A stretch of 26,290 nucleotides of DNA from a virus, in IMG/VR virus record IMGVR_UViG_3300042387_001247, positions 1 through 26,290 of that record; one strand, written 5' to 3'. Positions 9,142-25,939 of this stretch are shown in pieces. A program made the translations under genes and the position numbers. The notes beneath the pieces are model-generated. The model was not told the origin of the DNA. It saw only the letters and a program-made list of their open reading frames with translations, and ran no database searches. Within the stretch, counting starts at the first letter, position 1. Every line of letters begins with the position of its first letter.

Positions 9142-9420
9142 ATGCCCTCCGCCCGCCTTCCCGACGGCCGCGAGGTCGAAACTGCCAGCCCGGAATGGCG
9201 CGCGCACTGCTTCGCCGAGTGGAAGGCCCGGCAGCCGGAGTGCGACCGCCACGTGGCCACGCTGCAGCGCACCCGCGGCGCAGACGCCCGGCGCGAGTAC
9301 CTGGCCACCCTGGAGCGGGCCGACAAGTCAATGGCCGACCGCGTGCGCGTGGAGTTCGCGCGCTGGTGGGACGCCGAGCAGAAGCGCCGCGCCGCAGCCC
9401 GATCAACCCCCGCCGGATGA
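9142..9420 (+). CDS. Hypothetical phage protein (92 aa)
   Basis: MPSARLPDGREVETASPEWR opens the protein and GGAGG lies seven bases before ATG 9142. The rest is charged and helical with two Cys/His residues (HCFAEW, CDRHVATL). The PDGRxV...S.EWR opening is a recurring small phage-protein pattern of unknown function (DUF7696-like; low certainty). Overlaps the next gene by ATGA. Confidence 0.65.
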   Translation: MPSARLPDGREVETASPEWRAHCFAEWKARQPECDRHVATLQRTRGADARREYLATLERADKSMADRVRVEFARWWDAEQKRRAAARSTPAG

Positions 9421-9935
9421 CCTACCCAGCCGACCAGATGCTGCTGTTCACCGACCTGCCGATCCCGACGGCGCCGCCCGCTTCACCCCGCCCGAAGCCG
9501 GACAGGCCCTGGCGGGTGGCCGTGCAGGCGCTTGCCTGCCTGTTGCAGCTGCCGATCCGCGCCCCGCTGCGCGAGTTGGACCGCGACGACCTGGCCGAGC
9601 CGGCGCCTGTGCACCGCATCGTGTCGGCCGCAGACGCGCCGCCGGTGCAGACCGTGGCGGTGTCGAGCATCTTCGGCCTGGCCGCCACGGTGCAGTCGCT
9701 AAAGCGCGGCCGGTTCGGCACGGCCGAGCAGTTCGAGCCGGCTCCGTACCGTGTCGAGCGCAGCTACGCCGACGGCACGCTGCGGGTGATCCGGCAGCGG
9801 CCCGAGGAGACGGCCGAGTGGCAGGAACGCGAGCGGGTCAGGCGGGCGAAGCAGAGGCCGCCGAAGCCGACGGCGAAGGCGAAGACGCGGGGGAAGAAGG
9901 TGCGGGCATGGGATGGGGAGGGGCAGGATGGCTAA
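9417..9935 (+). CDS. Hypothetical protein with basic tail (172 aa)
   Basis: No family recognised. Pro-rich N-terminal part with one hydrophobic helix (WRVAVQALACLLQLPI). A middle part (YRVERSYADGTLRVIRQRP) is likely β-hairpin. The last ~40 residues are Arg/Lys/Pro-rich (KQRPPKPTAKAKTRGKK), consistent with nucleic-acid binding. It sits directly before the small terminase and overlaps it by eight bases. Confidence 0.6.
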   Translation: MTYPADQMLLFTDLPIPTAPPASPRPKPDRPWRVAVQALACLLQLPIRAPLRELDRDDLAEPAPVHRIVSAADAPPVQTVAVSSIFGLAATVQSLKRGRFGTAEQFEPAPYRVERSYADGTLRVIRQRPEETAEWQERERVRRAKQRPPKPTAKAKTRGKKVRAWDGEGQDG

Positions 9936-12573: not shown

Positions 12574-12585
12574 TTCCTAGCATCG
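12574..12585 (+). promoter_or_regulatory. TTCCTAGCATCG late-gene start motif (portal)
   Basis: Exact TTCCTAGCATCG seven bases before the portal ATG, in a 23-base gap with no Shine-Dalgarno. If TAGCAT acts as a -10 box, transcription would start almost at the ATG, making a leaderless message. Same motif at 18065 and 18482, near-copies at 16444 and 25530. Confidence 0.5.
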
Positions 12586-12592
12586 GGCGCCT

Positions 12593-13969
12593 ATGCCCGA
12601 GTTCATCATCAACGAGGCCGACTTCCTCGCGGCTTCGCGCGCACGCGAGGCCCTGCTGTACGGCTCGCTCGACGCGAAGCGCCCGCAGGCCTGGGTGCAG
12701 TTCGGGTATCCCGAGACGCTGACGCCCGAGCACCTGCTGAAGGCGTACCTGCGCGGCGGTCCCGGCTTCCGCGCCGTGCACCACATTCTCGACCGCTGCT
12801 GGCAGGAATGGCCGCGGGTGAAGCTGAAGGCTAGCGACGCCGAGACGCCGTGGGAAACACGGCTGCAGGGCATCCTCGAAAAGGTCAACGCTTGGCCGAA
12901 GCTGCAGGACTGGGACCGCCGGAACATGGTCGGGCGCTTCTCCGGTCTCATCCTGCGCGTGGCAGACGGGAAGCAGCTGCGCGAGCCGCTGATGAGGGCC
13001 TCGCGCCTGGTCGACCTGGTGCCGGTGTACGAGCACCAGCTGAAGGTGGTGGGCTGGGATAGCGACAGCAGCAGCGACACCTTCGGCCAGCCGACCATGT
13101 GGCAGTACCGCATGCGCACCAGCGACCGCCAGGACACGCAAGGCCAGCCCGAGCAGTGGGTCGACGTGCATCCGAGCCGCGTCCTGATCCTGGCCGAAGG
13201 CGCCGTCGGGGATGACTTCTTCGACGGCATCCCGCTGCTGCAGCCCGGGTTCAATGCGCTGGTCGACCTGGAGAAGGTCAGCGGCGGATCGGCCGAGAGC
13301 TACCTGAAGAACAGCGCCCGGGTGCTCAAGTTCACATTCGACAAGGACAGCGACCCGCAGAAGCTGACGCAGTCGGCCGACGGCAGCGCGAGCGGCAAGA
13401 CGCTGGGCCAGGCCATCGAGGAGAAGGCGCGCGGCCTGAACACCAACATCGACGCATCGGTGGCGGTGCAGGGTGGCGACGTGGGCACGCTACAAACCAC
13501 GATGCACGACCCACGAGGCGCCTGGGAGATCGCGGCGAACACCTTCGCGGCGGCCGTCGGCATCCCCTTCACGATCCTGTTCGGCCAGCAGACCGGCCGC
13601 TTGGCCAGCGACGAAGACAAGAAGGCCGACAACGCGCGGTGCAAGTCGCGCCAGCGCAACCTGCTCACCGGCGCCGTGACCGCGCTGATCCGCCGGCTGC
13701 AGGCGTGCGGCATCGTGGAGGCGTCGGACTTCGAGGTCGAGTGGAAGCCTCTGGATGCGATGGGCGACGGCGAGAAGGCCGACATCGCCAGCAAGCTGGC
13801 GACGATCAACAAGGACATGGTCGCCGCCGGCCGCAATGCCCCGTTCTCAGAGAACGAAGTGCGCAAGGTGCTGGACTACGAAGAAGAGCCCGAGCTCGAC
13901 GACATGCCGGGCGAGGGTGATCCGGCCGACGATGAGGGCGACCCGGGCGCGCTGCCGCCGCAGCCGTGA
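12593..13969 (+). CDS. Portal protein, DUF1073 family (458 aa)
   Basis: Portal ring subunit through which DNA enters the head. The order fits DUF1073/phage_portal_3: a wing/clip region with LVPVYEHQLKVVGW and WVDVHPSRVLILAEG, and the conserved core AVGIPFTILFGQQTGRLAS with DEDKKADNARC, then an acidic Pro/Asp-rich tail. Length is normal. ATG 12593 follows the TTCCTAGCATCG motif and has no Shine-Dalgarno. Its stop overlaps the GTG of the MuF-like gene, as usual for portal-MuF pairs. Confidence 0.9.
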   Translation: MPEFIINEADFLAASRAREALLYGSLDAKRPQAWVQFGYPETLTPEHLLKAYLRGGPGFRAVHHILDRCWQEWPRVKLKASDAETPWETRLQGILEKVNAWPKLQDWDRRNMVGRFSGLILRVADGKQLREPLMRASRLVDLVPVYEHQLKVVGWDSDSSSDTFGQPTMWQYRMRTSDRQDTQGQPEQWVDVHPSRVLILAEGAVGDDFFDGIPLLQPGFNALVDLEKVSGGSAESYLKNSARVLKFTFDKDSDPQKLTQSADGSASGKTLGQAIEEKARGLNTNIDASVAVQGGDVGTLQTTMHDPRGAWEIAANTFAAAVGIPFTILFGQQTGRLASDEDKKADNARCKSRQRNLLTGAVTALIRRLQACGIVEASDFEVEWKPLDAMGDGEKADIASKLATINKDMVAAGRNAPFSENEVRKVLDYEEEPELDDMPGEGDPADDEGDPGALPPQP

Positions 13970-15879
13970 GCCGCATCCGCCCGCGCTCGCCCATCATCCC
14001 GGGCGACACGACCGACCGCACCGGCAGCGGGCCTGTTCAGCGCCGGGCGATCCGGGCGATCCGCCAGCGCTGGGCCGGGCTCACGGCCGAGGTGCTGGCC
14101 ATCTTCGCGCGCATCCGGGTCGTCGGCGAGGTCGCGCAGAATGACCAGAGCAGCGCGCCGCGCACGGTGTACGCGCTGACGCCCGAGGAACTGGCCGCCG
14201 TAACGCAGGCGTTACGCGAGGCCTTCGACCGCTGGATCGAGGCCGTGGCCGGCGGCAGCTACCGGACGCACTGGTACGCGCAGATCGACGCCGAGGCTGC
14301 CCAGCTCGGGCTGGCGCAGAGCGCGGCGAACCTGTCGGCGCTGTCGGCCACCTACTCGGCCTCGCGGGACATCGGCTCGGCCCTCATGAGCCAGGGCTTC
14401 CAGAACCGGGTGGCCATGGCGCAGATCAAGAGCTACGAGCACTGGACCGGGCTGTCTGCCGGCGAGAAGTCGGCGCTGTCGCAGATCATCGGCCGCGGCG
14501 TGGTCGACGGGAAGAACCCGCGCGTGGTGGCGAAGGAGATCGAGGCGCGCATGGGGGTGTCGCGGGCTCGGGCTGAGGGCTGGGCGCAGACCGACATCAC
14601 CGACACGCTGCGCATGGCCCGCCTGGACGAACGGGATTGGGCCGTTGAGAACCTGGGCATGGAGATCGGGCTGCTGTGGAAGTCGGCGCTGATTCCGACG
14701 ACGCGGCCGACACACGCCGTGCGCAACGGGCGCACGTACAGCAGCGCCGAGGTGCGGGACTTCTACAGCCGGGACGGCAACATCTATCGGTGCTTCCTGC
14801 CCGGCACGCGCGTGGCCGGCCGCTTCTCAGCGGGCATCCAGTCCTACTACAAGGGGCCGGCCGTGCGTCTGGTGACTGCTGCGGGCCACGAACTCGCCGT
14901 TACCGCGAATCACCCCGTGCTGACCGCCCGCGGGATGGTGCCGGCTGCAGAACTCCGCGAAGGCGATCGCCTTGTCACGAACCGCGGCCAGATCGAATGG
15001 CGTGCCGCGCGGGTAGGACAGCTGCACGGTGAGCTGGTGCCGCCCACCATCGAGCAGGTATTCGGTGCGCTTGTGCAGGCGGGCCATGAGAGCCTTGCCC
15101 GGGTGAGCCCTGTAGACCTCCACGGCGACGCGGCTCTCTGTGAGCCAGAGGTCCACGTTGTACGGGCCGATCGGGAACTGGTGTTCGCACTCGACGCCGG
15201 CAGCGCGCAGCGCCTCGACAAGCTCGCGCTCACGCACGCCGACCTTCCGGGTACGCGTGGCCGCTCGCTTGACCTTCTCAGGCAGCGGGATCTCGCGCAC
15301 GCGGGCGACGAAGTTCGCAGCGGCGACGTTGGCGCGGCGCTCGGCCGCAGTCATGTTCCTCATGCGGACGCGCTGAGCCTCGCTCGTGTCGCGCACGGGC
15401 AGGCCGAGCCGCAGCATGGTCTTCCGCAAGGTGTTGCGGTCGACGCCGGTGCGGCCGCTGATCGCAAGGATGGACTCGCCGGCCATGTGGGCGGGGTGCG
15501 CCTCGAGGGCCTTCACCTCGCGCTCGCCGCGGAGCCACTCGCGGGCGCGGAAGCCGGCGCGGTGCATCCGCTCCATGACGGTCCGGTCGCACACGCCGAA
15601 CTCGGCAGCAATGGCGGCGAAGGTGGCGCCGGCCTTGAATCGCTGGATGAACTGGTCCGCATTGAAATCAGTCATTACGAGGGGCATGTCTACGATCTCC
15701 AAGAGCGATCGGGCCTGTTGATCGCCGGTGGAATTGTCGCATCTAACTGTCACTGCTCCGTTACGGAGGTGCTGCTCGACGACGACGGAAAGCCGCTGCT
15801 GACCGACCGGGCAAAGGAGACGAGCCGCACCGAGCTCGCCCGCTGGCAGGCGCAGCAGAAGAAGGCGGCCCGCAAGTAG
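13966..15879 (+). CDS. MuF-like head morphogenesis protein containing an intein (637 aa precursor)
   Basis: Mu gpF/SPP1 gp7-type minor head protein. N-extein residues 1-275 include the usual helical region (SAGEKSALSQIIGRGVVDGK, RAEGWAQTDITDTLRMARL) and WKSALIPTTRPTHAVRNGR. The C-extein (43 residues) starts CHCSVTEVLLDDDG. The exteins meet as YR|CHC, restoring the CxC motif typical of the family, for a 318-aa product. The GTG start overlaps the portal stop. The 319-residue insert is described separately. The frame has no stop through the insert. Confidence 0.9.
   Translation: MSRIRPRSPIIPGDTTDRTGSGPVQRRAIRAIRQRWAGLTAEVLAIFARIRVVGEVAQNDQSSAPRTVYALTPEELAAVTQALREAFDRWIEAVAGGSYRTHWYAQIDAEAAQLGLAQSAANLSALSATYSASRDIGSALMSQGFQNRVAMAQIKSYEHWTGLSAGEKSALSQIIGRGVVDGKNPRVVAKEIEARMGVSRARAEGWAQTDITDTLRMARLDERDWAVENLGMEIGLLWKSALIPTTRPTHAVRNGRTYSSAEVRDFYSRDGNIYRCFLPGTRVAGRFSAGIQSYYKGPAVRLVTAAGHELAVTANHPVLTARGMVPAAELREGDRLVTNRGQIEWRAARVGQLHGELVPPTIEQVFGALVQAGHESLARVSPVDLHGDAALCEPEVHVVRADRELVFALDAGSAQRLDKLALTHADLPGTRGRSLDLLRQRDLAHAGDEVRSGDVGAALGRSHVPHADALSLARVAHGQAEPQHGLPQGVAVDAGAAADRKDGLAGHVGGVRLEGLHLALAAEPLAGAEAGAVHPLHDGPVAHAELGSNGGEGGAGLESLDELVRIEISHYEGHVYDLQERSGLLIAGGIVASNCHCSVTEVLLDDDGKPLLTDRAKETSRTELARWQAQQKKAARK
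14791..15747 (+). mobile_element. Intein (319 aa) inserted in MuF head protein
   Basis: Protein-splicing element. Block A is CFLPGTRVAG with Cys1 as first nucleophile. Block B is LAVTANHPVLT (TxxH: Thr38, His41). Block F is GHVYDLQERSG (VYDL at 300-303). Block G is GGIVASN with terminal Asn319, followed by extein Cys+1. The residue before Asn is Ser instead of the usual His, a known tolerated variant in some inteins. Between blocks B and F lies no sense-strand nuclease; that stretch is the exact antisense of a homing endonuclease gene. Confidence 0.92.
14827..15687 (-). CDS. Antisense homing endonuclease nested in the intein, PD-(D/E)XK/Vsr-like (286 aa)
   Basis: Two helix-turn-helix segments (about 20-45, ATFAAIAAEFGVCDRTVMER; about 70-95, ESILAISGRTGVDRNTLRK) precede a Vsr/EDxHD-like nuclease fold: VRERELVEALRAAGV, FPIGPYNVDLWL (Asp179), SRVAVEVYRAHPG (Glu190), then HKRTEYLLDGG. 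ATG 15687 is preceded at nine bases by GGAG (minus strand of 15697-15700), itself inside intein block F codons. Codons of this gene and of the intein pair triplet for triplet, so it must avoid TTA, CTA and TCA to keep the intein open. The last ~35 residues lie opposite intein blocks A-B and may be a passive extension. Confidence 0.83.
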   Translation of the reverse strand: MPLVMTDFNADQFIQRFKAGATFAAIAAEFGVCDRTVMERMHRAGFRAREWLRGEREVKALEAHPAHMAGESILAISGRTGVDRNTLRKTMLRLGLPVRDTSEAQRVRMRNMTAAERRANVAAANFVARVREIPLPEKVKRAATRTRKVGVRERELVEALRAAGVECEHQFPIGPYNVDLWLTESRVAVEVYRAHPGKALMARLHKRTEYLLDGGRHQLTVQLSYPRGTPFDLAAVRDKAIAFAEFCSRHHPAGGQHGVIRGNGEFVARSSHQTHGRPLVVGLDAR

Positions 15880-15933
15880 GGCGCCCTTCGTGGTGGTTGC
15901 GCTGGCCGGCGGGTTCCGCTACGGTCGCGCGTC

Positions 15934-16443
15934 ATGAACACCCCCCGCGCACTGCTCATCCCCGCCGCCCTGGCCCTGCTGTCTGCCTGCGGGGGCGGAG
16001 GTAACGAACCCCCGCCCGAACTTATCTGGCAGGCCACGGCCTCAAGCTCCGGCATCCCGGAAGAGCCTACCGGCCGCACGCAGTGGTCCCCGCAGCTGAT
16101 CGCAGCCGGAGGCTTCACGCCCGCGCGCCCCTTCAGCGGCGAGGCCTGCATCGAGGGCACGTGGTCGCAGACGCTTCTCCACGACGCCACGGTCGAGATC
16201 GCGATCAGCACCGCCGGGCTACCGCTGCAGCAGAGCGGCAGCCGGGCCAGGTTCGTGGCCTCGGGGCTTGCCGGCGCGACGCTGTCGATCCCGTTCCGCA
16301 TCTGCCGGCCGGCTGAGGGCCCCGGGCTGGGCACGCTGGCGGTCGAGGCCTTCCCCCGCGCTATCTGCACTATCGGAAACTTCCGGTGCCTGGGGGCCTA
16401 CAGCGTCAACGTGCGCTGGTCCGTGGTGGGCGCCTACCGCTGA
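15934..16443 (+). CDS. Predicted phage lipoprotein (169 aa)
   Basis: Signal peptide MNTPRALLIPAALALLSAC with lipobox LLSAC and Cys19 as the lipidated residue, then a GGGG spacer. The mature part seems β-rich, with Cys in ACIEGTWSQ, FRICRPAEG, AICTIGNFRC that could form disulfides. Export to the outer-membrane periplasmic face is expected (residue +2 is Gly). No family recognised. Lipoproteins in structural regions are often superinfection-exclusion morons, but nothing here shows that function. A degenerate copy of the late-start motif (TTCC...CTACGGTCG, 15914-15927) precedes it. Confidence 0.72.
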   Translation: MNTPRALLIPAALALLSACGGGGNEPPPELIWQATASSSGIPEEPTGRTQWSPQLIAAGGFTPARPFSGEACIEGTWSQTLLHDATVEIAISTAGLPLQQSGSRARFVASGLAGATLSIPFRICRPAEGPGLGTLAVEAFPRAICTIGNFRCLGAYSVNVRWSVVGAYR

Positions 16444-16455
16444 TTCGTAGCATCG
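16444..16455 (+). promoter_or_regulatory. Late-gene start motif variant (TTCGTAGCATCG)
   Basis: One mismatch to TTCCTAGCATCG, beginning at the lipoprotein stop codon region. The next ATG (16459) opens a frame with no protein-like features, and a terminator follows within 100 bases, so the motif may start a short RNA. Confidence 0.42.
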
Positions 16456-16458
16456 CCC

Positions 16459-16553
16459 ATGCCGGCTAGGGGTGGCCGGTTCATCGTTGTTGTCTCCTGC
16501 CCGCTGCATGGGCACATCGGCCCCGGCGTCGCAAGGCTCCGGGGCTTTCTTTC
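16459..16553 (+). ncRNA. Candidate ~95-nt small RNA between start motif and terminator
   Basis: Bounded by the TTCGTAGCATCG motif and by a rho-independent terminator at 16520-16553. The open frame from 16459 runs through the terminator and into the antisense of the leftward cassette, so it is not a credible gene. Transcription is inferred only from these boundaries. Confidence 0.3.
16520..16553 (+). terminator. Rightward rho-independent terminator
   Basis: GCCCCGG (16520-16526) pairs with CCGGGGC (16539-16545), a seven-pair GC stem with a 12-base loop, followed by TTTCTTTC. Placed after the lipoprotein gene and facing the convergent leftward cassette, it would separate the two. Confidence 0.75.
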
Positions 16554-16601
16554 GTCAGGGGCTGCCGATAGGCCCGTCTGTGAAGACGTAGACGCCAATG
16601 T

Positions 16602-16787
16602 TCATGAACGGCAACGGCCGGAATGTCGCGCCACCTCGCCGCGGCCAGGCTGCACGGCCCATGGATGCGGGTTGTTGACAGGCACGTCAAACCACGCAAT
16701 CAGCCCGCGGCGCCTTGCCCAACGGCGCAGCTTGGGCCGCAGCGAGGCAAACAGCGCCTTCGTCTTTCTAGCGTTGCGCATCGTCAC
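16602..16787 (-). CDS. Small basic protein, end of leftward cassette (61 aa)
   Basis: GTG 16787 overlaps the stop of the previous cassette gene (GTGA); an ATG lies two codons later. Strongly basic first half (RNARKTKALFASLRPKLRRW), then AWFDVPVNNPHPWAV. No family recognised. An ATGA overlap at its end opens a 16-codon frame (to 16555) that I do not count. Could be a real small gene or a decayed C-terminal remnant. Confidence 0.45.
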   Translation of the reverse strand: MTMRNARKTKALFASLRPKLRRWARRRGLIAWFDVPVNNPHPWAVQPGRGEVARHSGRCRS

Positions 16788-17323
16788 GATGTCGCCTCCT
16801 CGGAAAGCCGCGTCAGCAGCGCCAGTTCGTCGGGCGTGAACGTCGCATCCACGCCGCCAGTCCCGGCCCGCTTCAGCAGGTCCGAGCCCTCGGACTGGAC
16901 GACGAGGCGGACGTAGCGGCGGAGGAGGTCAAGCGCCACATAGGGCACGCGCTCGGTTTCGATCTTGAGCCCGCCGTCTATCGTTCCGAGCAGTGCGCAC
17001 TGAAGCGGCTCCCAGTGTTCCTGGCCTTCGCGCTTGATGGAGAACTCGGTCACTCTGCTGTGCTTGGTCATGTCGACCGGCGGCTTCTTGAACTCGTCGA
17101 CCAGAGACGAATCGTAGGTGGCAGCGTAGGTCGTCGGGATCGGGCGCGCGTGGTCGATGGCGCCCTGCAGCGCCTGCTCGGCGCCCTGCCTGGCCCGCCG
17201 CAACTCCTTCTCGCAGGCGATGGCGTCAGTGCCAGACAGGATGTCGTGGTTCGGCGCAACGAACTCGGTCGCCGAGAGCAGGCTGCGCAGTGCGCCTGCA
17301 AGGGTAGTATCAGAGTCCCCCAT
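16784..17323 (-). CDS. Unknown protein of leftward late-region cassette (179 aa)
   Basis: Largest member of the cassette and the best supported: AAGGAA seven bases before ATG 17323 and a normal coding pattern. The N-terminal half is helical (ACEKELRRARQGAEQALQGA). A β-rich middle (VTEFSIKREGQEHWEPLQCA, LGTIDGGLKIETERVPYVAL) leads to a helical end with FTPDELALLTRLSEE. No catalytic motif or family recognised. Not obviously structural; orientation opposite to all virion genes suggests independent, perhaps host-state-dependent, expression. Confidence 0.72.
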   Translation of the reverse strand: MGDSDTTLAGALRSLLSATEFVAPNHDILSGTDAIACEKELRRARQGAEQALQGAIDHARPIPTTYAATYDSSLVDEFKKPPVDMTKHSRVTEFSIKREGQEHWEPLQCALLGTIDGGLKIETERVPYVALDLLRRYVRLVVQSEGSDLLKRAGTGGVDATFTPDELALLTRLSEEATS

Positions 17324-17346
17324 GAGGCGGTTCCTTCGCTGAGTGG

Positions 17347-17565
17347 TTACGGCGCCGGCTTGAGCATCTTCGCCAGCGCCTCATCCGAGGCCATGCCGGC
17401 AAGCATGCGTTCGCGCTCGGCTTCGTACTCGGCCAGCAGCGCCCGGGCCTTGGCCCCAAGCGCCGCGTCGTCCTTCGCCTGCGCCGCCGCTGCCTTCAGC
17501 AGGCCCATGTAGCGGCGGGAGAGGCGGTTAGGGTTTGGCGGGGGTTTCTTCGGCTGGGATGTCAT
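17347..17565 (-). CDS. Small helical protein of leftward cassette (72 aa)
   Basis: MTSQPKKPPPNPNRLSRR is a Pro/Lys-rich start; the remainder is one or two Ala/Glu-rich helices (AKDDAALGAKARALLAEYEA), possibly coiled coil. ATG 17565 lies 38 bases inside the upstream gene and its ribosome site is weak, so coupling is likely. Stop is 23 bases before the next cassette start. No family recognised. Confidence 0.58.
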   Translation of the reverse strand: MTSQPKKPPPNPNRLSRRYMGLLKAAAAQAKDDAALGAKARALLAEYEAERERMLAGMASDEALAKMLKPAP

Positions 17566-17965
17566 AGGCTTTGTTTGCGCTATGACGAAGCACAGCACAG
17601 AACCGAGAGACCTCGCGCTCAACGTCCTCCGACGTTTCCAGTGCGTAGCCCATGAAATCGCCGCAGGTTTGCGCCACGGAGTCCATGAGGTGCTGCATGG
17701 ACTTGCTAGCGTCGGCATCGCTCTCGGCGTCGTCGAGCAGCCGAGTTACTGCGCGTCCAAGGTAGTCCTGTATGTCAAACTCGCGTGGGCTCTCTAAGCC
17801 GGCCGCTTCCCATACGGCTTGAGCAGCCACGATGACAGCCGCCTTTTCATTGCTGCCGAGACGGGCAAGAACCCTTCGCATTCCCGGCGAGGCCTCGACG
17901 ATTTCGCACAGTCGCTTGAGGCCGGACAGATGGGCCGGGAGATCAGTAGCATTGGCATCAGCCAT
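17528..17965 (-). CDS. Helical unknown protein, first gene of leftward cassette (145 aa)
   Basis: AAAGGA seven bases before ATG 17965 fixes the start (MADANATDLPAHLSG); the frame further upstream covers hairpin DNA. Nearly all helical, with an acidic centre (RLLDDAESDADASKSMQHL) and two Cys (QTCGDFMGYAL, RFCAVLRH). No family recognised. A 9-bp hairpin at 17995-18029 lies in its presumed leader. Confidence 0.66.
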   Translation of the reverse strand: MADANATDLPAHLSGLKRLCEIVEASPGMRRVLARLGSNEKAAVIVAAQAVWEAAGLESPREFDIQDYLGRAVTRLLDDAESDADASKSMQHLMDSVAQTCGDFMGYALETSEDVEREVSRFCAVLRHSANKAYDIPAEETPAKP

Positions 17966-18064
17966 GTAGCGGTCCTTTCGCTGAGAGGTGGCTAGAAGCC
18001 CGGCGCGATTCGCAGTCGCCCCGGGCTTCGCCATTGTGGGCCGCGGGCGGCTCTGCCGCAACTC

Positions 18065-18076
18065 TTCCTAGCATCG
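18065..18076 (+). promoter_or_regulatory. TTCCTAGCATCG motif without a gene behind it
   Basis: Exact copy of the late-start motif, but the next protein gene is over 400 bases away. What follows is the interleaved inverted-repeat region, so this copy could drive a non-coding transcript or be a relic of a lost gene. Confidence 0.45.
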
Positions 18077-18086
18077 CGCTTGCCAT

Positions 18087-18192
18087 TGGGTGCATCCTTG
18101 GCAACAATCCGACCCGAGCCCTCAAGGCCGGTCGTTTGCCCCACAGCGTGGGGACCGTGATGCACCCACGGGAGCGACCAGCCTTGAGGGCT
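18087..18192 (+). ncRNA. Candidate structured RNA with pseudoknot-type inverted repeats
   Basis: Arm A TGGGTGCATC (18087-18096) pairs with GATGCACCCA (18159-18168). Arm B, 18 bases (18117-18134, beginning AGCCCTCAAGGC), pairs with 18175-18192 (ending GCCTTGAGGGCT) with one mismatch. The order A-B-A'-B' cannot form as simple nested hairpins. A local hairpin CCCCAC/GTGGGG sits at 18139-18153. Directly downstream of a late-start motif. Not matched to any RNA family I know. Confidence 0.42.
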
Positions 18193-18481
18193 TGTCCGTT
18201 TCCGGCCGCCTGCGGGCGCGCGAGCGTGGCGAAAGCGAGCACGGCCCTGCATCGGGCCACACCGCGCAAAGACCGGCCGGTCGGCTCACCCTGACCGCGC
18301 GCCGTGCGGCCTGTTTGCGAGGGACCGCGCAAGACGACGGGTTACGGGGTGACTTCAGCCTGCCCGCCGCCGACGAATCGCAGCCTCCTGGGTGCGCTGG
18401 GCCTGCATGCTTCCATGACTGCATGCAGTGCCGGGCGAGGCGTGACTCTCCTGTCACCCTTGGCAGTGCTATGGGCGGCCG

Positions 18482-18493
18482 TTCCTAGCATCG
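18482..18493 (+). promoter_or_regulatory. TTCCTAGCATCG late-gene start motif (protease)
   Basis: Exact motif six bases before the ATG of the DUF2213 gene, which has no Shine-Dalgarno. A TTGGCA at 18460-18465 is 20 bases from TAGCAT, too far for an ordinary -35. Confidence 0.5.
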
Positions 18494-18499
18494 CGCCGC

Positions 18500-19843
18500 A
18501 TGAAGCACACCCGTGTCCATGTCCTGTCGGCCGTCAACGCCGGCGCGGTCTCGAAGTCCGGCGGCCGGTACACGGTCGCCAACGTCTGCGGCGCCGTCGA
18601 CGGCATCGTGATGAATGGGATGGCCTACATGGCCGACCAGCTCGCAGCCGGCGCCCCGTCCCTCGAAGGCAAGCCCGCCCCCGCCGGCCACCCGAAGGAC
18701 GACGCAGGCCGCTACATCAGCGCGCTGAGCGGGAACGCCCTGCTGACCAGCTACGCCGGCGCCGTGTGCACCAACGTCCGCCACGAAGGCGGCCGGACGC
18801 TGTACGACGTGGTCGTCAACGAGGCCCAGGCCAAGGCGCACCCCGACGGCGCGAAGCTGGTCGATCGGCTCGACGCGGCCATGAACGGCAGCAACGCCGA
18901 GCCGATCCACGTGAGCACCGGCCTCTTCTGCAAGGCCATCACCGCGAACGGCGAGAGCCTGGGCAAGAAGTACCAGCGCATCGCTACCGAGATCGTCTAT
19001 GACCACTCGGCCTTCCTGCTGAACGAGAGCGGCGCCGGCACGCCCGAGCAGGGCGTCGGCATGTTCCTGAACGCGGCCGGCGAGGCTGAACAAGTCGAAG
19101 CCGTGACCGTCAACGAAGCGCTGGACCGCCGCGGCGAGGGCTTCGCCGGATGGGCTGAGAGCCTGCTGCGCAAACTGCTCGGCAACGAGGACGAACTCAG
19201 CCTCGATCAGATCCGCGAGGGCCTCTACAAGGCCCTTCCCGAAGGCGGCTGGGTGCGCGAGGTCTTCGCCCGCTACGCCGTCTGGTCCGACCGTGACGGC
19301 CGCATGTACCGCCAGGACTACACCGTGGCTTCGGATGGGTCGTCCGTAGCATTTTCTGGGACTGCTCAAGAGGTGCGCGAGAAGCGCGAGTACGAGCCGA
19401 TCAACAACCTGCAGAAGGACGCCATGAAGGACATGCTCACCGCCGCGCTGAACGCCGCCGGCATCAAGACCGAGGGGCTGACCGAAGCGCAGCTGCTGTC
19501 GGCCTACAACCAACACGTCAGCGCCGCGGCCGTCGCACAGGTGCAGACCAAGCTCGACGCCGCGAACGCGCAGCTGCAGACCCTGCAAGCCAACGCGCAG
19601 CAGGCCGAAGCCGCCGAGCTGGCGACGCTGGCCACCGAGCTGGCCGCCAATGCCAAGGGCCTGACCGCCGACGACTTCAAGGCCATGGGCCTGAAGCGCT
19701 GCAAGGAGCTGAAGGCCAACGGCACGACCGCTGCGCCGGTGCTGCCGGGCAGTGCCGCCGCGACCACCACGGCTGGCGCCGAGTTCGCCAGCTATGACTT
19801 CAACGCGCTGATCGACGCCGCCGACGGCGCCGGCAAGCGCTGA
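18500..19843 (+). CDS. DUF2213 prohead protease with scaffold-like C terminus (447 aa)
   Basis: Residues 1-~240 match DUF2213, the HK97/Mu-type head maturation protease: GHPKDDAGRYISA (His64), EPIHVSTGLFCK (Ser139) and IVYDHSAFLLNE (Asp168/His169) are the likely catalytic parts. Residues about 335-400 form a long Ala/Gln-rich helix (TKLDAANAQLQTLQANAQ), as expected for a fused scaffold, and the tail is Ala/Thr-rich. Encoded upstream of decoration and capsid genes. It probably directs assembly of the head shell and then cleaves itself and partners. Confidence 0.85.
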   Translation: MKHTRVHVLSAVNAGAVSKSGGRYTVANVCGAVDGIVMNGMAYMADQLAAGAPSLEGKPAPAGHPKDDAGRYISALSGNALLTSYAGAVCTNVRHEGGRTLYDVVVNEAQAKAHPDGAKLVDRLDAAMNGSNAEPIHVSTGLFCKAITANGESLGKKYQRIATEIVYDHSAFLLNESGAGTPEQGVGMFLNAAGEAEQVEAVTVNEALDRRGEGFAGWAESLLRKLLGNEDELSLDQIREGLYKALPEGGWVREVFARYAVWSDRDGRMYRQDYTVASDGSSVAFSGTAQEVREKREYEPINNLQKDAMKDMLTAALNAAGIKTEGLTEAQLLSAYNQHVSAAAVAQVQTKLDAANAQLQTLQANAQQAEAAELATLATELAANAKGLTADDFKAMGLKRCKELKANGTTAAPVLPGSAAATTTAGAEFASYDFNALIDAADGAGKR

Positions 19844-19865
19844 ACCGCACCAAAGGGAGCCGCAC

Positions 19866-20318
19866 ATGAGCCGCACCGTCTACAAAGGCCCGAACGGCCG
19901 CCAGCCCGTCACGACCGACGCCCGCGTCTGCGCGGCCGCGCTGCTGCCGTGCACGTTCGTCACCGAAAGCGCGACGCAGTTCGCCCAGGCCACCGCGCCG
20001 GGCACGACGTTCCTCCGCCTGCTGGCCGACCGTGACTTCTATAGCACGGCCCAGTTGGACGCCACGAACCCGCTGCTGACCGCCTACGCCTCTGGTGACA
20101 CGGGCATCGCCTACATCCTGGAGCCGGGCCAGCGCTACCTGGTAGCCGTGGCCGCCGCGACCTACACCTACGGCCAGGAGCTGACCGTGGGCGCTGCCGG
20201 CCGGGCCGTGGCCGCCGCGTCGACCAACCGTGTGATTGCGTTCTCTCGGGAAGCCGGTGTGCGCGCTGCCGGCGACCTGATCGAGGTCGAGATCGCCATT
20301 TCCTACGCCAAGGCCTGA
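19866..20318 (+). CDS. Head decoration-like protein (150 aa)
   Basis: Small, β-rich, Ala/Thr/Tyr-rich protein (FLRLLADRDFYSTAQLD, YLVAVAAATYTYGQELTVG, VRAAGDLIEVEIAISYAKA). Its position between protease and major capsid gene and its ~150-residue size fit capsid decoration/cement proteins (DUF2190-like pattern at the end). AGGGAG ribosome site before ATG 19866. Family by context more than by motif. Confidence 0.68.
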   Translation: MSRTVYKGPNGRQPVTTDARVCAAALLPCTFVTESATQFAQATAPGTTFLRLLADRDFYSTAQLDATNPLLTAYASGDTGIAYILEPGQRYLVAVAAATYTYGQELTVGAAGRAVAAASTNRVIAFSREAGVRAAGDLIEVEIAISYAKA

Positions 20319-20332
20319 CGGGAGAACAGACC

Positions 20333-21340
20333 ATGCTTCGCTACACCGAAGAACAGATCGCCGCCATCAACGCGGCGCGCGCCGGTTTCAACCAGCGCCA
20401 AGTGGCCATGGCCGCGAACCACGCGGCAGACATGCAGTTTGCCGGCAACGCCTCGGGCGTCGACATCGACGCGTGGCGCCGCATCGACACCCGGGCGGTG
20501 CAGATCCAGCGCGACGTGCTGGCCGTCTTCAACACGCTGGCCCGCGCGAACACCACGCCGATGGGTGTGGGCGACCTGATCAACTACTTCCCGCAGATCA
20601 GCGACAGCGGCGCGGTCACCGTTTCCATGGACGGCCGCAACGGCCAGATCGCCGACCAAGCGCAGGTGAAGTACGTCGGCACCCCGGTGCCTGTCGTGTC
20701 GTCGGCGGCCCGCATGGGCTGGCGTCAGATGGCCGTCGTGCGCAAGGGTGGCGTGGGCCTGGACGTCGAGACCATCGCCAACCACCAGCGCAAGGTGGCC
20801 GAGAAGCTCGAAGACATGGTGCTGAACGGCGACGCCAGCATCGTCGTCGGCGGCTCGCAGGTCTTCGGCCTGCGCAACCACCCGCAGCGCAACACCGGCA
20901 CGCACGGTTTCGACCTAAACAGCACGGCCACCGGCGCCAACTGGCTGACGGCCTCCCGCCAGCTGGTCGATGCGTGCGTGGGCGACAACGCCTTTGGCCG
21001 AATCACTGTGTTCCTGAACTACAGCGACTGGGTGTACGCCTCGATCAACGAGTTCGCCGCGGGCTACCCGAAGACGATCCTGGCCCGCCTGCGCGAGATC
21101 GAGCAGATCGCCGACATCATCCCCTGCAGCCGTGTGCCCGCCGACAACATCATCGGTGTCGCCGGCCTAGCCGACGGCAACTGGGGCTCGATCCTGTCGG
21201 CCATGCCGATGACGACCCGCCCGAAGGTGCGCCAGAACCCCGAGGACGACTACGTCTTCGACGTGATGGCCGTGGTGGCGCCGCAGTTCCGCGCGGACTT
21301 CGACGGCCGCGCCCCGTTCGCGCACCTGACGGCCAGCTGA
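20333..21340 (+). CDS. Major capsid protein (335 aa)
   Basis: Major head subunit, probably HK97/encapsulin-type fold. Recognisable blocks: DVLAVFNTLARANTTPMGVG, VPVVSSAARMGWRQM, VAEKLEDMVLNGDASI with VFGLRNHPQRNT, and FAAGYPKTILARLREIEQIA near the P-domain, ending FDVMAVVAPQFRADF. Good ribosome site (GGGAGA) before ATG 20333. Length is normal. Resembles the major capsid group annotated DUF6260; I am sure of the role, less of the exact family name. Confidence 0.86.
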   Translation: MLRYTEEQIAAINAARAGFNQRQVAMAANHAADMQFAGNASGVDIDAWRRIDTRAVQIQRDVLAVFNTLARANTTPMGVGDLINYFPQISDSGAVTVSMDGRNGQIADQAQVKYVGTPVPVVSSAARMGWRQMAVVRKGGVGLDVETIANHQRKVAEKLEDMVLNGDASIVVGGSQVFGLRNHPQRNTGTHGFDLNSTATGANWLTASRQLVDACVGDNAFGRITVFLNYSDWVYASINEFAAGYPKTILARLREIEQIADIIPCSRVPADNIIGVAGLADGNWGSILSAMPMTTRPKVRQNPEDDYVFDVMAVVAPQFRADFDGRAPFAHLTAS

Positions 21341-21342
21341 TC

Positions 21343-21603
21343 ATGAAGGTCAACGTCACGCACCTGAAGGCGCCGTGGCCGGCTGGCACGGTGCCGGGCC
21401 ACGTGGTCGACTTCCCGGGCCTGGACGCCATCCCGGCCTGGGCTGCGGGCAAGTGCACGCCGGCTGCCGACGATGCCGAGGCGGTGTCGTCGTGGCCGGT
21501 CGCGGTGGCCCCGGCTGAGCTCACCGTCGAGTCCGTCAAGGCGCCCGAGGGTGAGCCCGTCGTGAACCCTGCCGTCAAGAAGGCCAAGGCCGCCGCCGGC
21601 TGA
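21343..21603 (+). CDS. Small head-associated hypothetical protein (86 aa)
   Basis: MKVNVTHLKAPWPAGTVPG, then PAWAAGKCTPAADDAEA and a Lys/Pro/Val tail. Short proteins with this VKVTHLKAPW...G..V...G.A pattern regularly follow capsid genes in related phages; function unknown. ATG 21343 lies two bases after the capsid stop. Confidence 0.65.
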   Translation: MKVNVTHLKAPWPAGTVPGHVVDFPGLDAIPAWAAGKCTPAADDAEAVSSWPVAVAPAELTVESVKAPEGEPVVNPAVKKAKAAAG

Positions 21604-21627
21604 GCCCGCGCACCGCCGTCGCCCGCT

Positions 21628-21993
21628 ATGCTCACGCTCGCGCAGGCGACGGCCTACCTCGACGAAGCCCTCGGCATCACGGTGCCGAGCTTCGTCGTTC
21701 ACGCCGCAGTCGACGACGTGGCCGCGCTCGAGCCGGCCATGGTGGCGGCGGGCTACAGCGCCGCGACCATCGTGCGAATCCAGGCCATGGCCGTGGCCAT
21801 CGTTGCCGGCGCCGACAGCGCGCGCCGCATCCAGTCGCAGGGCGCCCCATCGGGGGCCTCGCGCAGCTTCAAGAACGCCGACAACGCCATCACGGCACTG
21901 CGGCGCAGCCTGTCTGGCCTGGACAGCGCCGGCATCACGGCCGCGCTTGTCGGGGCCGACCCGGCCAATTCGACGCTTCTCCTCGTGGTCTAG
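21628..21993 (+). CDS. Head-tail connector-like protein (121 aa)
   Basis: All-helical protein (LTLAQATAYLDEALGITVPS, VRIQAMAVAIVAGADSARR, NAITALRRSLSGLDSAG) of the size and position of head-completion/adaptor proteins (DUF7370-like). It would join portal and neck. No strong Shine-Dalgarno (CGCCCGCT before the ATG). Confidence 0.6.
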   Translation: MLTLAQATAYLDEALGITVPSFVVHAAVDDVAALEPAMVAAGYSAATIVRIQAMAVAIVAGADSARRIQSQGAPSGASRSFKNADNAITALRRSLSGLDSAGITAALVGADPANSTLLLVV

Positions 21994-22075
21994 GGCGCCG
22001 CCCGCGTGACAGCGCACACCAGCACCAGGCGCCGCGGCTGACCCTGCCAGACATCACCAAACAGGACCCCCGACC

Positions 22076-24226
22076 ATGACGATTCCGCAAGGCTTCGAGT
22101 TCACCGGCGCCGGCTGGTATGACCGCAACACCGGCCGCGGGCCGTACAGCTACGACGGCGTTTCCATGACGCTCATGAGCACCGGCAACATCACCGGCAA
22201 GTTCCGCGAGGCGTTCGAGTCATTCACGCCCGGCGAGAAGTACGACATCACCAGCAATGGCGCCGGTGACTTGGTCTTCCTCGACGGCAACGCCGCCGCC
22301 GCGAGCTACCTGGTGATCAGCAAAGACCCGTTGCAGGCCGGAACAGAGACGATCGTCACGTCGCGTGACACCGCCAAGATGCCGATCGACGCCTCAATCG
22401 GCCTGTCGATGTCACAGCGCACGCTCGGCCAGGAGATGGCGGTCGAGTTTGTCGATACGCTGCCGTCGCTTCCCGATGTGCCCGACATTGCCATCGCGTC
22501 GATCACTCAAGCGCTGTCGGTGTTGACGGTTGACACCGTTGCACCGCACGGCCTGTCCGTTGGCCAATCTATCGGCATCTTTGGGTGCGCAAACGAGGCA
22601 GCGAACTATTCGTCTTTGGTTGTCGCCACTGTTACGTCGCCGACCCAGTTCACAGTAACTGCTGGACCTGGTGGCACTATCGCATCGCAGACGATTGCGA
22701 ACCCATCCGGCGAGAAGGGGTTTGTCTATTTCCGAGAGAGACTTGGCCGCGCGCAGAACGGCATTTCGCAAATCTTCGAGAACGCGACCGTTACGAACTC
22801 GTCGTTTTACGTCCGCAGCGAATCTGGCGACGTGCTTCCGTCAGGAACCGTCGCGGGAAACCACTCCGTCACGATTGCAACGACGGCTTCGACTCAACTT
22901 GCCCCCAACACGCAGTACACGTACAGCTTCTCCCCTTCGACGGAGTACCGCTACAACATCCAGGCGGATCGCGTCCAGTGTTCCGATGCAGTCATCGACA
23001 CTGTTGCGCAGCCGATCAACCGGTTGCTGCGCGTGCAGGTCTGCCCGGACCCGGTTAATGACTACCGCCTGCGCTTTCGGGCCACGAACAACAAGGCACT
23101 GACTGTCCCTGCCGCGCAGATCGTTTCAGCGGTTAAAGCCACCGCCAGCGCCACCGCGACGATTACAACCGACGTTCCGCACGGGTTTATTGTTGGTGAT
23201 CCGGTTGTCGTCTACGGCATCCGCGATCAGACCAACTTCGCCAACCTTCTGACAGCTACAGGCGTGGCGTCTGTCATTGATGCCACGTCGTTCACGATTG
23301 TCATCGGTACGGCCGTTATCTCAACCAGCTATGGCGGATACGTCGCCAAGGTGCAGGGTGGTAACCTGATGTCTGCGCTGGGCGCCAGCGCGGTGGTTGC
23401 GCAGTCTGCGGTTTTGTCCACGCTGGCAGACGGCACGCGGCAACTCGTCATCACCGGAAACACGACATGGGCCGCTGGCTCTATCGGCGACCTCGTTAAC
23501 GTGGTCGGCATGCGGGCAGACCTGACAGGCACTTCGCTCGGCATGGATGGCCCGTGGAAGATCGCCAACCAGGCCACGACTTTCCTGACGTTGGTTTTGC
23601 CGTTCCCGGATCAGCGCACCCTTCCGGCGGACTTCGCCAGCACCAACTGCGGCGGCGCGATCATCAAGCGCACCGACATTCGGGTGTCGTTCGTGCGGGT
23701 GTTCGAGTTCCAGCGCGAGCGTGTTGAGCTGCTGTCTCGCCCGGCCGGCGACATGGCCGGCGCGGTTCCTGTCGTCCCGCAAGGGGGCACGATTGCCTCC
23801 GTCTCTGGCGTCACGACCGTTTCGACCGTTTCGACCGTCTCCGCTGTCACCAGCGCCGGTACGCCGCTTGCCCCGGCCACGCCCTACATCCTGAACAGTC
23901 TCGCAACTACCAACATCGCCCTTATTTTGACGGGCTCCAGTGGCTTGCAGGCTTTCTACGCCACAAACATCGGCGCGACCCCGGCGTTTGTCAAGCTATA
24001 CAACAAAGCGACCGCGCCGGTTCTCGCGTCCGATGTTCCTGCAATGGTTATCACCGTTCCTGCAGCAGTGGCCGGTGTTCCTGGGGAGAAGGAGATAACG
24101 CCAGGATTTAACGGTTACCGCTTTGCATTGGGATTGGGCATCGCCATAACCGGCGCCGTGGCAGACACCGACGCCACGGCGGTGGCCGCAGGCCAAGTCA
24201 AGGTCATGCTGTCTCGAACCGTGTAA
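22076..24226 (+). CDS. Large virion structural protein with internal repeats (716 aa)
   Basis: Probably a head fibre, neck or receptor-binding structural protein. Starts with MTIPQGFEFTGAGWYDRNTG. Two related β-domains: ~141-197 (VDTVAPHGLSVGQSIGIFG) and ~351-413 (TTDVPHGFIVGDPVVVYGI), a pattern (PHGxxVGDxVxxxG) common in phage fibre and baseplate proteins. A degenerate third copy may lie at ~435-500. The C-terminal ~140 residues are Ala/Val/Thr-rich and end YRFALGLGIAITGAVADTD, suitable for a trimeric head domain. AGGA ribosome site before ATG. Parts are less GC-rich than neighbours. Confidence 0.7.
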   Translation: MTIPQGFEFTGAGWYDRNTGRGPYSYDGVSMTLMSTGNITGKFREAFESFTPGEKYDITSNGAGDLVFLDGNAAAASYLVISKDPLQAGTETIVTSRDTAKMPIDASIGLSMSQRTLGQEMAVEFVDTLPSLPDVPDIAIASITQALSVLTVDTVAPHGLSVGQSIGIFGCANEAANYSSLVVATVTSPTQFTVTAGPGGTIASQTIANPSGEKGFVYFRERLGRAQNGISQIFENATVTNSSFYVRSESGDVLPSGTVAGNHSVTIATTASTQLAPNTQYTYSFSPSTEYRYNIQADRVQCSDAVIDTVAQPINRLLRVQVCPDPVNDYRLRFRATNNKALTVPAAQIVSAVKATASATATITTDVPHGFIVGDPVVVYGIRDQTNFANLLTATGVASVIDATSFTIVIGTAVISTSYGGYVAKVQGGNLMSALGASAVVAQSAVLSTLADGTRQLVITGNTTWAAGSIGDLVNVVGMRADLTGTSLGMDGPWKIANQATTFLTLVLPFPDQRTLPADFASTNCGGAIIKRTDIRVSFVRVFEFQRERVELLSRPAGDMAGAVPVVPQGGTIASVSGVTTVSTVSTVSAVTSAGTPLAPATPYILNSLATTNIALILTGSSGLQAFYATNIGATPAFVKLYNKATAPVLASDVPAMVITVPAAVAGVPGEKEITPGFNGYRFALGLGIAITGAVADTDATAVAAGQVKVMLSRTV
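23814..23840 (+). repeat. Tandem 9-bp repeat in structural gene
   Basis: Three copies of CGACCGTTT (last copy CGACCGTCT) encode TVSTVSTVS in the hinge before the C-terminal domain of the large structural protein. Copy-number slippage here would lengthen or shorten a linker in frame. Confidence 0.7.
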
Positions 24227-24294
24227 GGACATCGCGCCGGAACCATAAGAGCCAGTTTCCGGTGCTACATCGCCCATTGAACCAGGAGAACACC

Positions 24295-24636
24295 ATGCCG
24301 CGCAATTACGACACGACCTCGGGACTGCCTTACCCGCGGGTCTGCCGCATCGTCATCGATCACCACGAGGACGGCACATCGACCGTGACCTACGAGGAGC
24401 GCACCGCCATCGTCGATGCAGGCGGCGCCGTGCGGCTGCTCGACGGCCGACCCGAGGTGCGGATGCTGCCGTTGCCTGCGCCGACGCACCCGGTCGGGTA
24501 TGTCAACCCGGCCACGGGTGCGCAGATTCCTGGCTCGACGACTGTGCAGCAGATGCTGATGGGCATCACCGCCATCTGCCGCCGCGGGCAGATGCTGCTT
24601 GACGGCGAGGCCGACCCGCTGCAGCCGCTGCCCTGA
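24295..24636 (+). CDS. Hypothetical structural-region protein (113 aa)
   Basis: No family recognised. CAGGAG ribosome site before ATG 24295 (MPRNYDTTSGLPYPRV); an upstream GTG is rejected. β-rich first half (CRIVIDHHEDGTSTVTYEER), Pro-rich middle, helix near the end (TTVQQMLMGITAICRRG). Lies between the large structural protein and the peptidase, with one base between stop and next start. Confidence 0.65.
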   Translation: MPRNYDTTSGLPYPRVCRIVIDHHEDGTSTVTYEERTAIVDAGGAVRLLDGRPEVRMLPLPAPTHPVGYVNPATGAQIPGSTTVQQMLMGITAICRRGQMLLDGEADPLQPLP

Positions 24637-24637
24637 C

Positions 24638-25132
24638 ATGCTCGTCGCCCACTACATCGGCGCCCACCGCGGCGACAGCCTGCACGTCCGCCTGGGCTGG
24701 GCGTGCGTGCGCGCCGTGCAGCGTGGCGAGTACAAGCGCGTCACGCACGTCGAGTCGATCCTCCAGGAGCACGACGACGGCACCGTCACCATCGCCAGCA
24801 GCAGCTTGCGCGACGGCGGCGTGCGAGCCAAGCGCGTGTCGCTCAAGGCGGGCCACTGGCTCATCTCTGACGTGCCGCACTGGGACGTGGTGCGCGCGCT
24901 CGAGCTGCTCGACGACACCGAGGGCTGGCCCTATGACCTGTTCGGCGCGATGGCTACCGTGCTGCCCACGCGCCAGAAGAGCGGTAGCTTCTTCTGTTCC
25001 GAGTGGGTGGCAAAGCCGTTCCTGCGCAGCCCGCAGACCTTCGGCCCGGCGCAGCTTGCCGCCATCACCATGAGCCCCGCCTTCGGCCGCAACGTAACGG
25101 CCGACTTCTTCGGCAGCCGAGCCGTCGCCTGA
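24638..25132 (+). CDS. Permuted papain-like (YiiX/NlpC-P60-type) cysteine peptidase (164 aa)
   Basis: His37 in RVTHVESIL precedes Cys120 in SGSFFCSEWVAKPF, and PYDLFGAMA lies between. This His-first, Cys-later order with FxCSE is the hallmark of circularly permuted NlpC/P60 (YaeF/YiiX-like) amidases, which act on peptide or lipid amide bonds. No signal peptide. In a phage structural region it may be a virion-associated cell-wall peptidase or process a structural protein. Fold call is fairly firm; substrate unknown. Confidence 0.72.
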   Translation: MLVAHYIGAHRGDSLHVRLGWACVRAVQRGEYKRVTHVESILQEHDDGTVTIASSSLRDGGVRAKRVSLKAGHWLISDVPHWDVVRALELLDDTEGWPYDLFGAMATVLPTRQKSGSFFCSEWVAKPFLRSPQTFGPAQLAAITMSPAFGRNVTADFFGSRAVA

Positions 25133-25138
25133 AGCAGC

Positions 25139-25507
25139 ATGCCGGCCGTTTACCTCGCGCAGCCCACCACCGCATCCAGCTGGTCATACCGCCAGACCGC
25201 CACGCTCTGGCGCCTGGCGGCCACGGCCGAGTGGAGCGGCCAGACGACCTACACGCTCGCCGGGCAGTTTCTGTGCGACCACTCCGCAGAGTCGCGCCGC
25301 ATGGCCAGCGCCAGCGGCGACGAGTTCGTGTCGCGGCTGCTGATCTACACCTCACTGCCCGACATCAAGCAGGGCGACATGGTGCTGGTGGGCGTGTCTG
25401 AGCTCGCCGACCCGTTTGCGGCCGGCGCCCAGGAGGTGCGGGCCGTGGCCTCGTGGGCCGACACCTTCAAGGCCGAAGGCTCCCCCGACTTCCGCATCGC
25501 CACCTGA
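25139..25507 (+). CDS. Head-closure/neck-like hypothetical protein (122 aa)
   Basis: β-rich protein (ATLWRLAATAEWSGQTTYTL, FVSRLLIYTSLPDIKQGD, MVLVGVSELADPFAAG). Position just before a gp10-like protein fits a head-closure (stopper) protein, whose β-barrel has a similar size and "I..GD.V..G" signature. The assignment is mainly by order. Confidence 0.58.
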   Translation: MPAVYLAQPTTASSWSYRQTATLWRLAATAEWSGQTTYTLAGQFLCDHSAESRRMASASGDEFVSRLLIYTSLPDIKQGDMVLVGVSELADPFAAGAQEVRAVASWADTFKAEGSPDFRIAT

Positions 25508-25529
25508 AGGCAGGCCCGCGCGGTGGGCC

Positions 25530-25541
25530 TTCCTAGCATCC
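25530..25541 (+). promoter_or_regulatory. Late-gene start motif (TTCCTAGCATCC)
   Basis: Near-exact motif five bases before ATG 25547 in a 39-base gap, again without a Shine-Dalgarno. Confidence 0.48.
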
Positions 25542-25546
25542 GTCGC

Positions 25547-25939
25547 ATGGATCGCAACCGTGTTCGCGTGGTCAACCGCATGCCGCAGTTTCTGACGGCG
25601 ACGCAGGCCCGCGCGCAGCGCACGGTGATGACGATGTTGATCCCGATCGGGAGCGAGACGGTCGGCATGATCCCGAGGGCGTCCTCGGACCTTGTCAACT
25701 CACAGACGCGCGAGGTCGACATGATCGGCACTGTCGTTCGCGGTCGCATCGGCTTCATGACCGAGTACGCCGCGGCGGTGCACGAGGCGCCCGGCACGCT
25801 GCTCGGCAAGAACGTGCCGCGCCCGAAGGGGCAAGGTGTCGTCTGGGGTCCGTCCGGTGAGCCCGAGTTCCTGAAGAAGGGCGCCGAGCAGGCGAAGAAT
25901 GTCGTCGAGCAGGCCCTGCGCCGGGGGATGCGGCTGTGA
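25547..25939 (+). CDS. HK97 gp10-like tail completion protein (130 aa)
   Basis: The conserved end of the family is visible: GFMTEYAAAVHEAPGTLLGK, then GPSGEPEFLKKGAEQAKNVV, matching "YAxxVHE...xFLxxA". N-terminal part is basic and helical. Joins tail to head in siphophages. ATG 25547 follows the late-start motif; its stop overlaps the next GTG (GTGA). Confidence 0.8.
   Translation: MDRNRVRVVNRMPQFLTATQARAQRTVMTMLIPIGSETVGMIPRASSDLVNSQTREVDMIGTVVRGRIGFMTEYAAAVHEAPGTLLGKNVPRPKGQGVVWGPSGEPEFLKKGAEQAKNVVEQALRRGMRL

Follow-up and report, generated by a model that had tools for sequence, protein, structure and literature searches.

A recurrent, strand-oriented motif, CTYCCTA(G/T)CAT, recurs in the late region of a virus genome and its relatives, and its placement makes it very likely that it acts as a promoter, with a transcription start whose position we infer from the sequence. 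Our fuller explanation, which we consider probable, is that a large family of temperate Burkholderiales phages, most of them uncultured, uses the motif as its late promoter and reads it with a phage factor, a small protein here termed REG. What the DNA itself displays is the motif, its orientation, its spacing to start codons, a dichotomy in Shine–Dalgarno sequences and the co-occurrence with REG. In the proposed mechanism, TA(G/T)CAT would be the −10 element, CTYCC directly upstream would stand in for a −35 element, and transcription would start ~7–9 nt past the final T of the motif. An ATG at the transcription start would yield a leaderless message, a gene start further on would leave a leader with a Shine–Dalgarno sequence, and some copies of the motif would drive small structured RNAs.

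The stretch of DNA analyzed here (the window) is a virus record of 26,290 bases, with early genes on the left and packaging and head genes from ~9.4 kb. The latter region includes genes for TerL (11139), a portal protein (12593..13969, + strand; Phage_portal_3 / phrog_146), a Mu-F-like head protein with an intein-like insert (13966–15879), a protease-like phrog_760 protein (18500..19843, + strand; annotated in relatives as DUF2213 or prohead protease), a decoration protein (19866), a coat-like DUF6260 protein (20333) and a neck or tail-completion-like protein (25547..25939, + strand; phrog_5, E 2e-4). The portal, protease-like and neck genes are predicted to be leaderless. Among the relatives are prophages of Roseateles, Rhodoferax, Pseudacidovorax and Comamonas, so the host is very probably a member of Burkholderiales. 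Prophages with the motif are carried by Comamonas terrae NBRC 106524, Roseateles terrae CECT 7247 and Rhodoferax sp. TH121.

Motif copies in the window and in related phages

Scanning the window with the 12-mer TTCCTAGCATCG returned exact copies at 12574, 18065 and 18482 and copies with one mismatch at 16444 and 25530, the same five positions that the initial annotation had listed as exact or near-exact. When up to two mismatches were allowed, seven matches were found against 1.44 expected, a number reached in 0 of 100 shuffles. A matrix built from other phages scored the sites at 18065, 25530, 18482 and 12574 at 17.5–21.1 bits (null maximum of 15.7 in 40 simulations). It added a site at 19343 (11.7 bits) and rated 16444 as weak (9.3 bits); both of these scores fall inside the null range, and both sites rest on position and context. 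Two-mismatch matches at 11468 and 17703 scored as expected by chance. Degenerate copies had also been proposed at 15914 and 24257, which were absent among the 25 best matrix matches and which we dropped as family members. Rather than a motif copy at 15914, the start at 15934 has TTGCGC-17-TACGGT-8-ATG (15897–15934) ahead of a lipoprotein-like ORF. This arrangement looks like an ordinary host-type leaderless promoter, and the lipoprotein-like gene is probably an added (moron) gene.

The window copies lie on the + strand. The copy at 12574..12583 (TTCCTAGCAT) has the portal ATG 9 nt on (12593), that at 18482..18491 has the protease ATG 8 nt on (18500) and that at 25530..25539 has the neck-protein ATG 7 nt on (25547); counted from the end of the 12-mer, these start codons lie 5–7 bases downstream with no Shine–Dalgarno sequence in between, as first described. 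The copies at 18065..18074 and 16444..16453 (the weaker TTCGTAGCAT) head non-coding elements that are considered below. An internal site, TCCGTAGCAT (19343..19352), which was missing from the initial annotation, lies within the protease gene and precedes the genes for the decoration and coat proteins; its counterpart is the motif in L069, L071, L077, L078 and L088 and TATCAT in G019. Variants of the TCCGTAGCAT/TTCGTAGCAT type are found at gene starts of other phages of the family (L048, L050, L212 and L226).

Across 12 related phage records and other loci, YYCCTA(G/T)CAT occurs at 132 non-redundant sites, which are not independent, many being homologous between relatives; the late strand holds 127 of them. 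The consensus of this set is [CG]TYCCTAGCAT, although YYCCTA(G/T)CAT was fixed by the scan pattern itself, which leaves the flanking bases, the strand and the distances as the only features free of bias. In the non-redundant set, information content stays at or below 0.15 bit throughout the region between −50 and −2 upstream of the motif, and we therefore conclude that there is no −35 element. Whole virus records contain 1–8 matches per motif phage and no match to the reversed pattern. A 4-Mb Rhodoferax genome has 10 matches, 8 of which lie within the prophage.

Lack of conservation in related phages had been named at the outset as one result that would refute the promoter reading, and the motif is conserved. 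Upstream of the portal gene, it is present in 27 of 28 related contigs with similar spacing, the motif-to-ATG distance being near-fixed. Ahead of the protease start, it is retained in almost every relative with >50% protein identity, to as low as ~53%, and is gone in relatives of <40% protein identity. Variants of the motif shift together across a phage: G019 has TCCCTATCAT at five of five sites, and (T/C)CGTAGCAT forms occur in L048, L050 and L226.

Start codons and non-coding elements downstream of the motif

Among the 127 late-strand sites, 75 are followed 5–10 nt past the motif by an ATG that opens a frame, and the distance from motif to first ATG peaks at 7–8 nt. With start codons assigned by computation and a Shine–Dalgarno threshold of a duplex of ≤ −6 kcal/mol, none of these 75 starts has a Shine–Dalgarno sequence, whereas among 408 control genes from the same phages 47% do; the stretch searched overlaps the motif, so this absence is partly forced because the motif fills the space. 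The return of Shine–Dalgarno sequences with longer leaders is not forced, and 7 of the 17 sites with a leader of 12–45 nt have one (41%, against 47% of control genes). Such a dichotomy would be expected if the motif set the position of the transcription start. The close sites have the makeup of a leaderless promoter, with a putative −10 element 6–9 nt ahead of the start codon and no Shine–Dalgarno sequence.

Several copies precede elements other than annotated genes, and terminator-like hairpins are enriched upstream of the motif (5 of 127 sites against 11 of 5,200 random positions, P 3e-5). The copy at 18065 heads a conserved pseudoknotted non-coding RNA (18080..18195, + strand), in which GGGTGCATC/GATGCACCC is crossed by AGCCCTCAAG/CTTGAGGGCT. 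The element is ~115 nt long and is represented by eight distinct versions, in which compensatory changes on both sides preserve the two crossing helices; in all eight variants (the window, L004, L014, L015, L020, L024, L034 and L240) it lies directly downstream of the motif. Its place in the genome varies, being ahead of the protease gene in some phages and ahead of the portal gene in L240, and it is inverted near the portal gene in L014 and L024. An Rfam scan gave two sub-threshold chance matches only, neither at the pseudoknot RNA of the window. The ~270 bp between this RNA and the protease promoter (18200–18470) is nearly unchanged in L004, L015, L020 and L034, has no long gene called in it and is possibly part of a longer RNA.

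The weaker copy at 16444 precedes a predicted RNA of ~100 nt (16456..16556, + strand) that ends in an intrinsic terminator-like hairpin (CCCCGGCGTCGCAAGGCTCCGGGG plus TTTCTTTC). Its fold is somewhat better than those of shuffles (z-score of −2.2), and a stricter terminator scan did not list the hairpin. That two copies in the window head non-coding elements fits a transcription signal better than a translation signal, as the initial annotation had argued.

Of the five sites on the opposite strand, four precede an ORF that is antisense to the head protein gene within its intein region, and the orientation of the motif is that of the predicted gene even at these antisense ORFs. At L035:3753, L063:3213, L067:9639 and L073:9049, the antisense ORF lies within the insert and has its own putative minus-strand motif promoter. 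At four other loci (L069:6773, L077:14377, L067:7319 and L241:7314), the motif heads a leader that shares GCGGATAGGGTCGCCCCCGAAA or a similar sequence and is possibly another structured RNA. The conserved spacing, the Shine–Dalgarno dichotomy and the copies that head non-coding elements and an antisense ORF all support the original proposal of a promoter that would give leaderless messages.

Host leaderless promoters and other readings of the motif

The sites might instead be ordinary host sigma-70 leaderless promoters (−10 element TAGCAT) that phages happen to favor, with REG as a passenger and no phage factor involved. Leaderless transcripts with a −10-like box have been reported in Burkholderia cenocepacia (PMC4603805). 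In our host sample of 800 kb (two 400-kb stretches from two genomes), genes with TANNNT 6–7 nt ahead of the ATG exist and are enriched, and leaderless promoters therefore belong to host biology. Some host ORFs even start with CCTAGCATN6-9ATG; we found such starts outside prophages, and without CTYCC, in G294, G359, G345 and G003 (L373–L392). Burkholderiales/high-GC leaderless sigma-70 promoters (PMC4603805) resemble the phage sites in having TANNNT a few nucleotides before the ATG and no Shine–Dalgarno sequence, but the phage sites fix both TAGCAT and CTYCC and have a spacing ~1 nt longer.

Only two of the host TANNNT sites 6–9 nt before an ATG are TAGCAT, the host hexamers being diverse, whereas the TANNNT boxes before ATGs in motif phages include 3 TATCAT and 26 TAGCAT, the latter counted with no motif assumed beforehand. 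The CTYCC block is present at only 2% of host sites, and box-to-ATG spacing peaks at 8 nt in phages and at 6–7 nt in the host (P 8e-7), so that neither the hexamer spectrum nor the spacing of the ordinary host class is shared; no −35 element is clearly visible at either host or phage leaderless sites. Also against a purely host-read promoter, constitutive reading would express virion genes in lysogens, and the motif variants shift phage-wide. We consider this reading unlikely. Because the hexamers, CTYCC and spacing differ from those of the host, the phage promoter looks like a specialized form needing something extra, and because host leaderless promoters are of another make, the phage sites most likely depend on a phage protein that modifies the host RNA polymerase reading them.

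Stoperators, known from mycobacteriophage L5, are repressor sites, and oriented sites of this type would block prophage transcription. The motif resembles them in being asymmetric, oriented and repeated near gene starts. Stoperators would have no fixed distance to start codons, however, whereas we found a near-fixed distance of 7–8 nt; neither this, nor the loss of the Shine–Dalgarno sequence, nor copies heading non-coding RNAs would be expected of them, and we regard this reading as very improbable. Slightly less probable still is a signal for translation initiation, which the ribosome would recognize instead of a Shine–Dalgarno sequence: the motif does adjoin start codons that lack one, but it also lies 12–45 nt ahead of genes that have one, heads non-coding elements and occurs within one gene, ahead of others. 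Chance and shared descent, with the repeats kept only through the surrounding DNA, would suit the near identity of close neighbors around the sites and is the least credible account, as the sites persist at 53–60% protein identity where their flanks do not and reversed patterns give no matches.

REG as a candidate late factor

If the motif is a late promoter read by a modified host RNA polymerase, the best candidate for the modifying protein would be REG, an unannotated protein of 172 aa (9417..9935, + strand) with QMLLF near its N terminus and an RRAKQRPPKP core. Members of the REG family are 126–189 aa long and are always encoded just upstream of the terminase genes. In a comparison of the gene sets of 12 motif phages with those of motif-less relatives, REG was the one non-structural family that stood out, and it is present in 13 of 13 motif phages (in G016 as a partial match where the retrieved sequence stops) but in 0 of 5 motif-less relatives. 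The motif is found near the start of REG itself in G010, G011, G017, G021, L065, L185, L187 and L236, at leaderless spacing in L185 and L236.

REG homologues are also encoded in prophages of the bacterial family, some of which have other structural genes. In four of six such prophages, CCTAGCAT is found near REG as single motif sites only, three of them at the leaderless distance and the fourth upstream of REG. REG is the sole gene family common to all of those regions and the motif phages, single other families matching in some. A search of viral contigs by REG alone gave 62 loci; of those that were new and extend as far as a portal or protease gene, the majority have the motif at a distance that suits a leaderless start. 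In a wider class sample of 369 genomes (E ≤ 1e-8), REG was recovered only as the known Rhodoferax copy, and the REG/motif system therefore looks concentrated in Burkholderiales. The link between REG and the motif, a correlation mostly within one clade, is strong as correlation and weak as mechanism; on this co-occurrence, we lean slightly toward REG being a late transcription factor.

Searches of Pfam, PHROG, NCBIfam and the PDB with REG gave nothing convincing, searches of deposited phages with three different members gave nothing, and no sigma-like domain was found in the protein. Its AlphaFold2 model is poor and not informative (pLDDT of 69, pTM of 0.27). The core of the family, SIFDLA ... 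TxEWxERERxRRAxQxPPKP, is conserved, whereas the N terminus varies. A QLxLF-type peptide is present in the N-terminal part of 32 of 53 distinct versions, compared with 1.9 after shuffling, and the clamp motif is absent in about 40% of distinct versions. The bacterial clamp-binding consensus is QL(S/D)LF (PMC9690074). A REG bearing QLxLF would tether the transcription complex to the sliding clamp on replicating DNA; such contact via QLxLF is conceivable from the peptide, with the balance somewhat against it. It is a tentative and rather doubtful proposal that REG founds a new class of late factor, small and largely disordered, which would steer host RNA polymerase to a leaderless promoter made of a single element and, by way of QLxLF, couple late transcription to the host replication clamp.

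Late transcription in T4 involves clamp-bound gp55 and gp33 (PMC2988020). T4 late promoters, with gp55, gp33 and the sliding clamp gp45 (PMC2988020, PMC7892883), resemble the system proposed here in having a −10-type element without a −35 element, which here corresponds to <0.15 bit from −50 to −2, in serving late genes and in using small phage proteins, and the proposed factor carries a putative clamp-binding motif (QLxLF, compared with the T4 clamp epitopes). In contrast to T4, the promoter sequence is different, the messages would be leaderless and the phages are temperate. REG has no detectable sequence similarity to solved gp55, gp33 or a sigma factor, and its clamp motif is N-terminal and not in all versions. 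Nor did the Pfam/PHROG and PDB searches of REG reveal a sigma-like gp55 homologue, and the families listed for early proteins of two phages, 54 proteins in all, included no sigma family. Judged by this lack of similarity, REG is not a member of the T4 late-factor family.

In lambda, Q acts on a single late promoter, pR′, to give one antiterminated transcript. REG lies between replication/recombination-type genes and the terminase genes, roughly where Q acts, but the phages described here would have many separate late promoters rather than one antiterminated transcript, and REG matches no known antiterminator family. AR9-like giant phages also have a short phage-specific late motif, and the AR9 study mentions leaderless transcripts (PMC5312081). 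AR9 encodes its own multisubunit RNA polymerases, whereas no RNA polymerase family was among the matches listed for the early proteins of two of the phages here. A literature search for CCTAGCAT together with phage gave nothing relevant among the matches listed.

In model phages, most late genes are read from leadered messages, whereas this environmental phage family appears to begin several virion operons leaderless, from an unusual −35-less promoter. Neither Pfam, PHROGs, NCBIfam and the PDB nor the phage collection contains an annotated relative of its candidate factor, REG. The motif provides a simple handle on the late transcription units and hidden small RNAs of uncultured Burkholderiales phages. 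If REG and its clamp motif are functional, the coupling of late transcription to replication would become comparable in two unrelated systems, and the proposed class of late factor, if true, would mean that T4-style coupling of late transcription to replication had been invented a second time, independently, by temperate phages.
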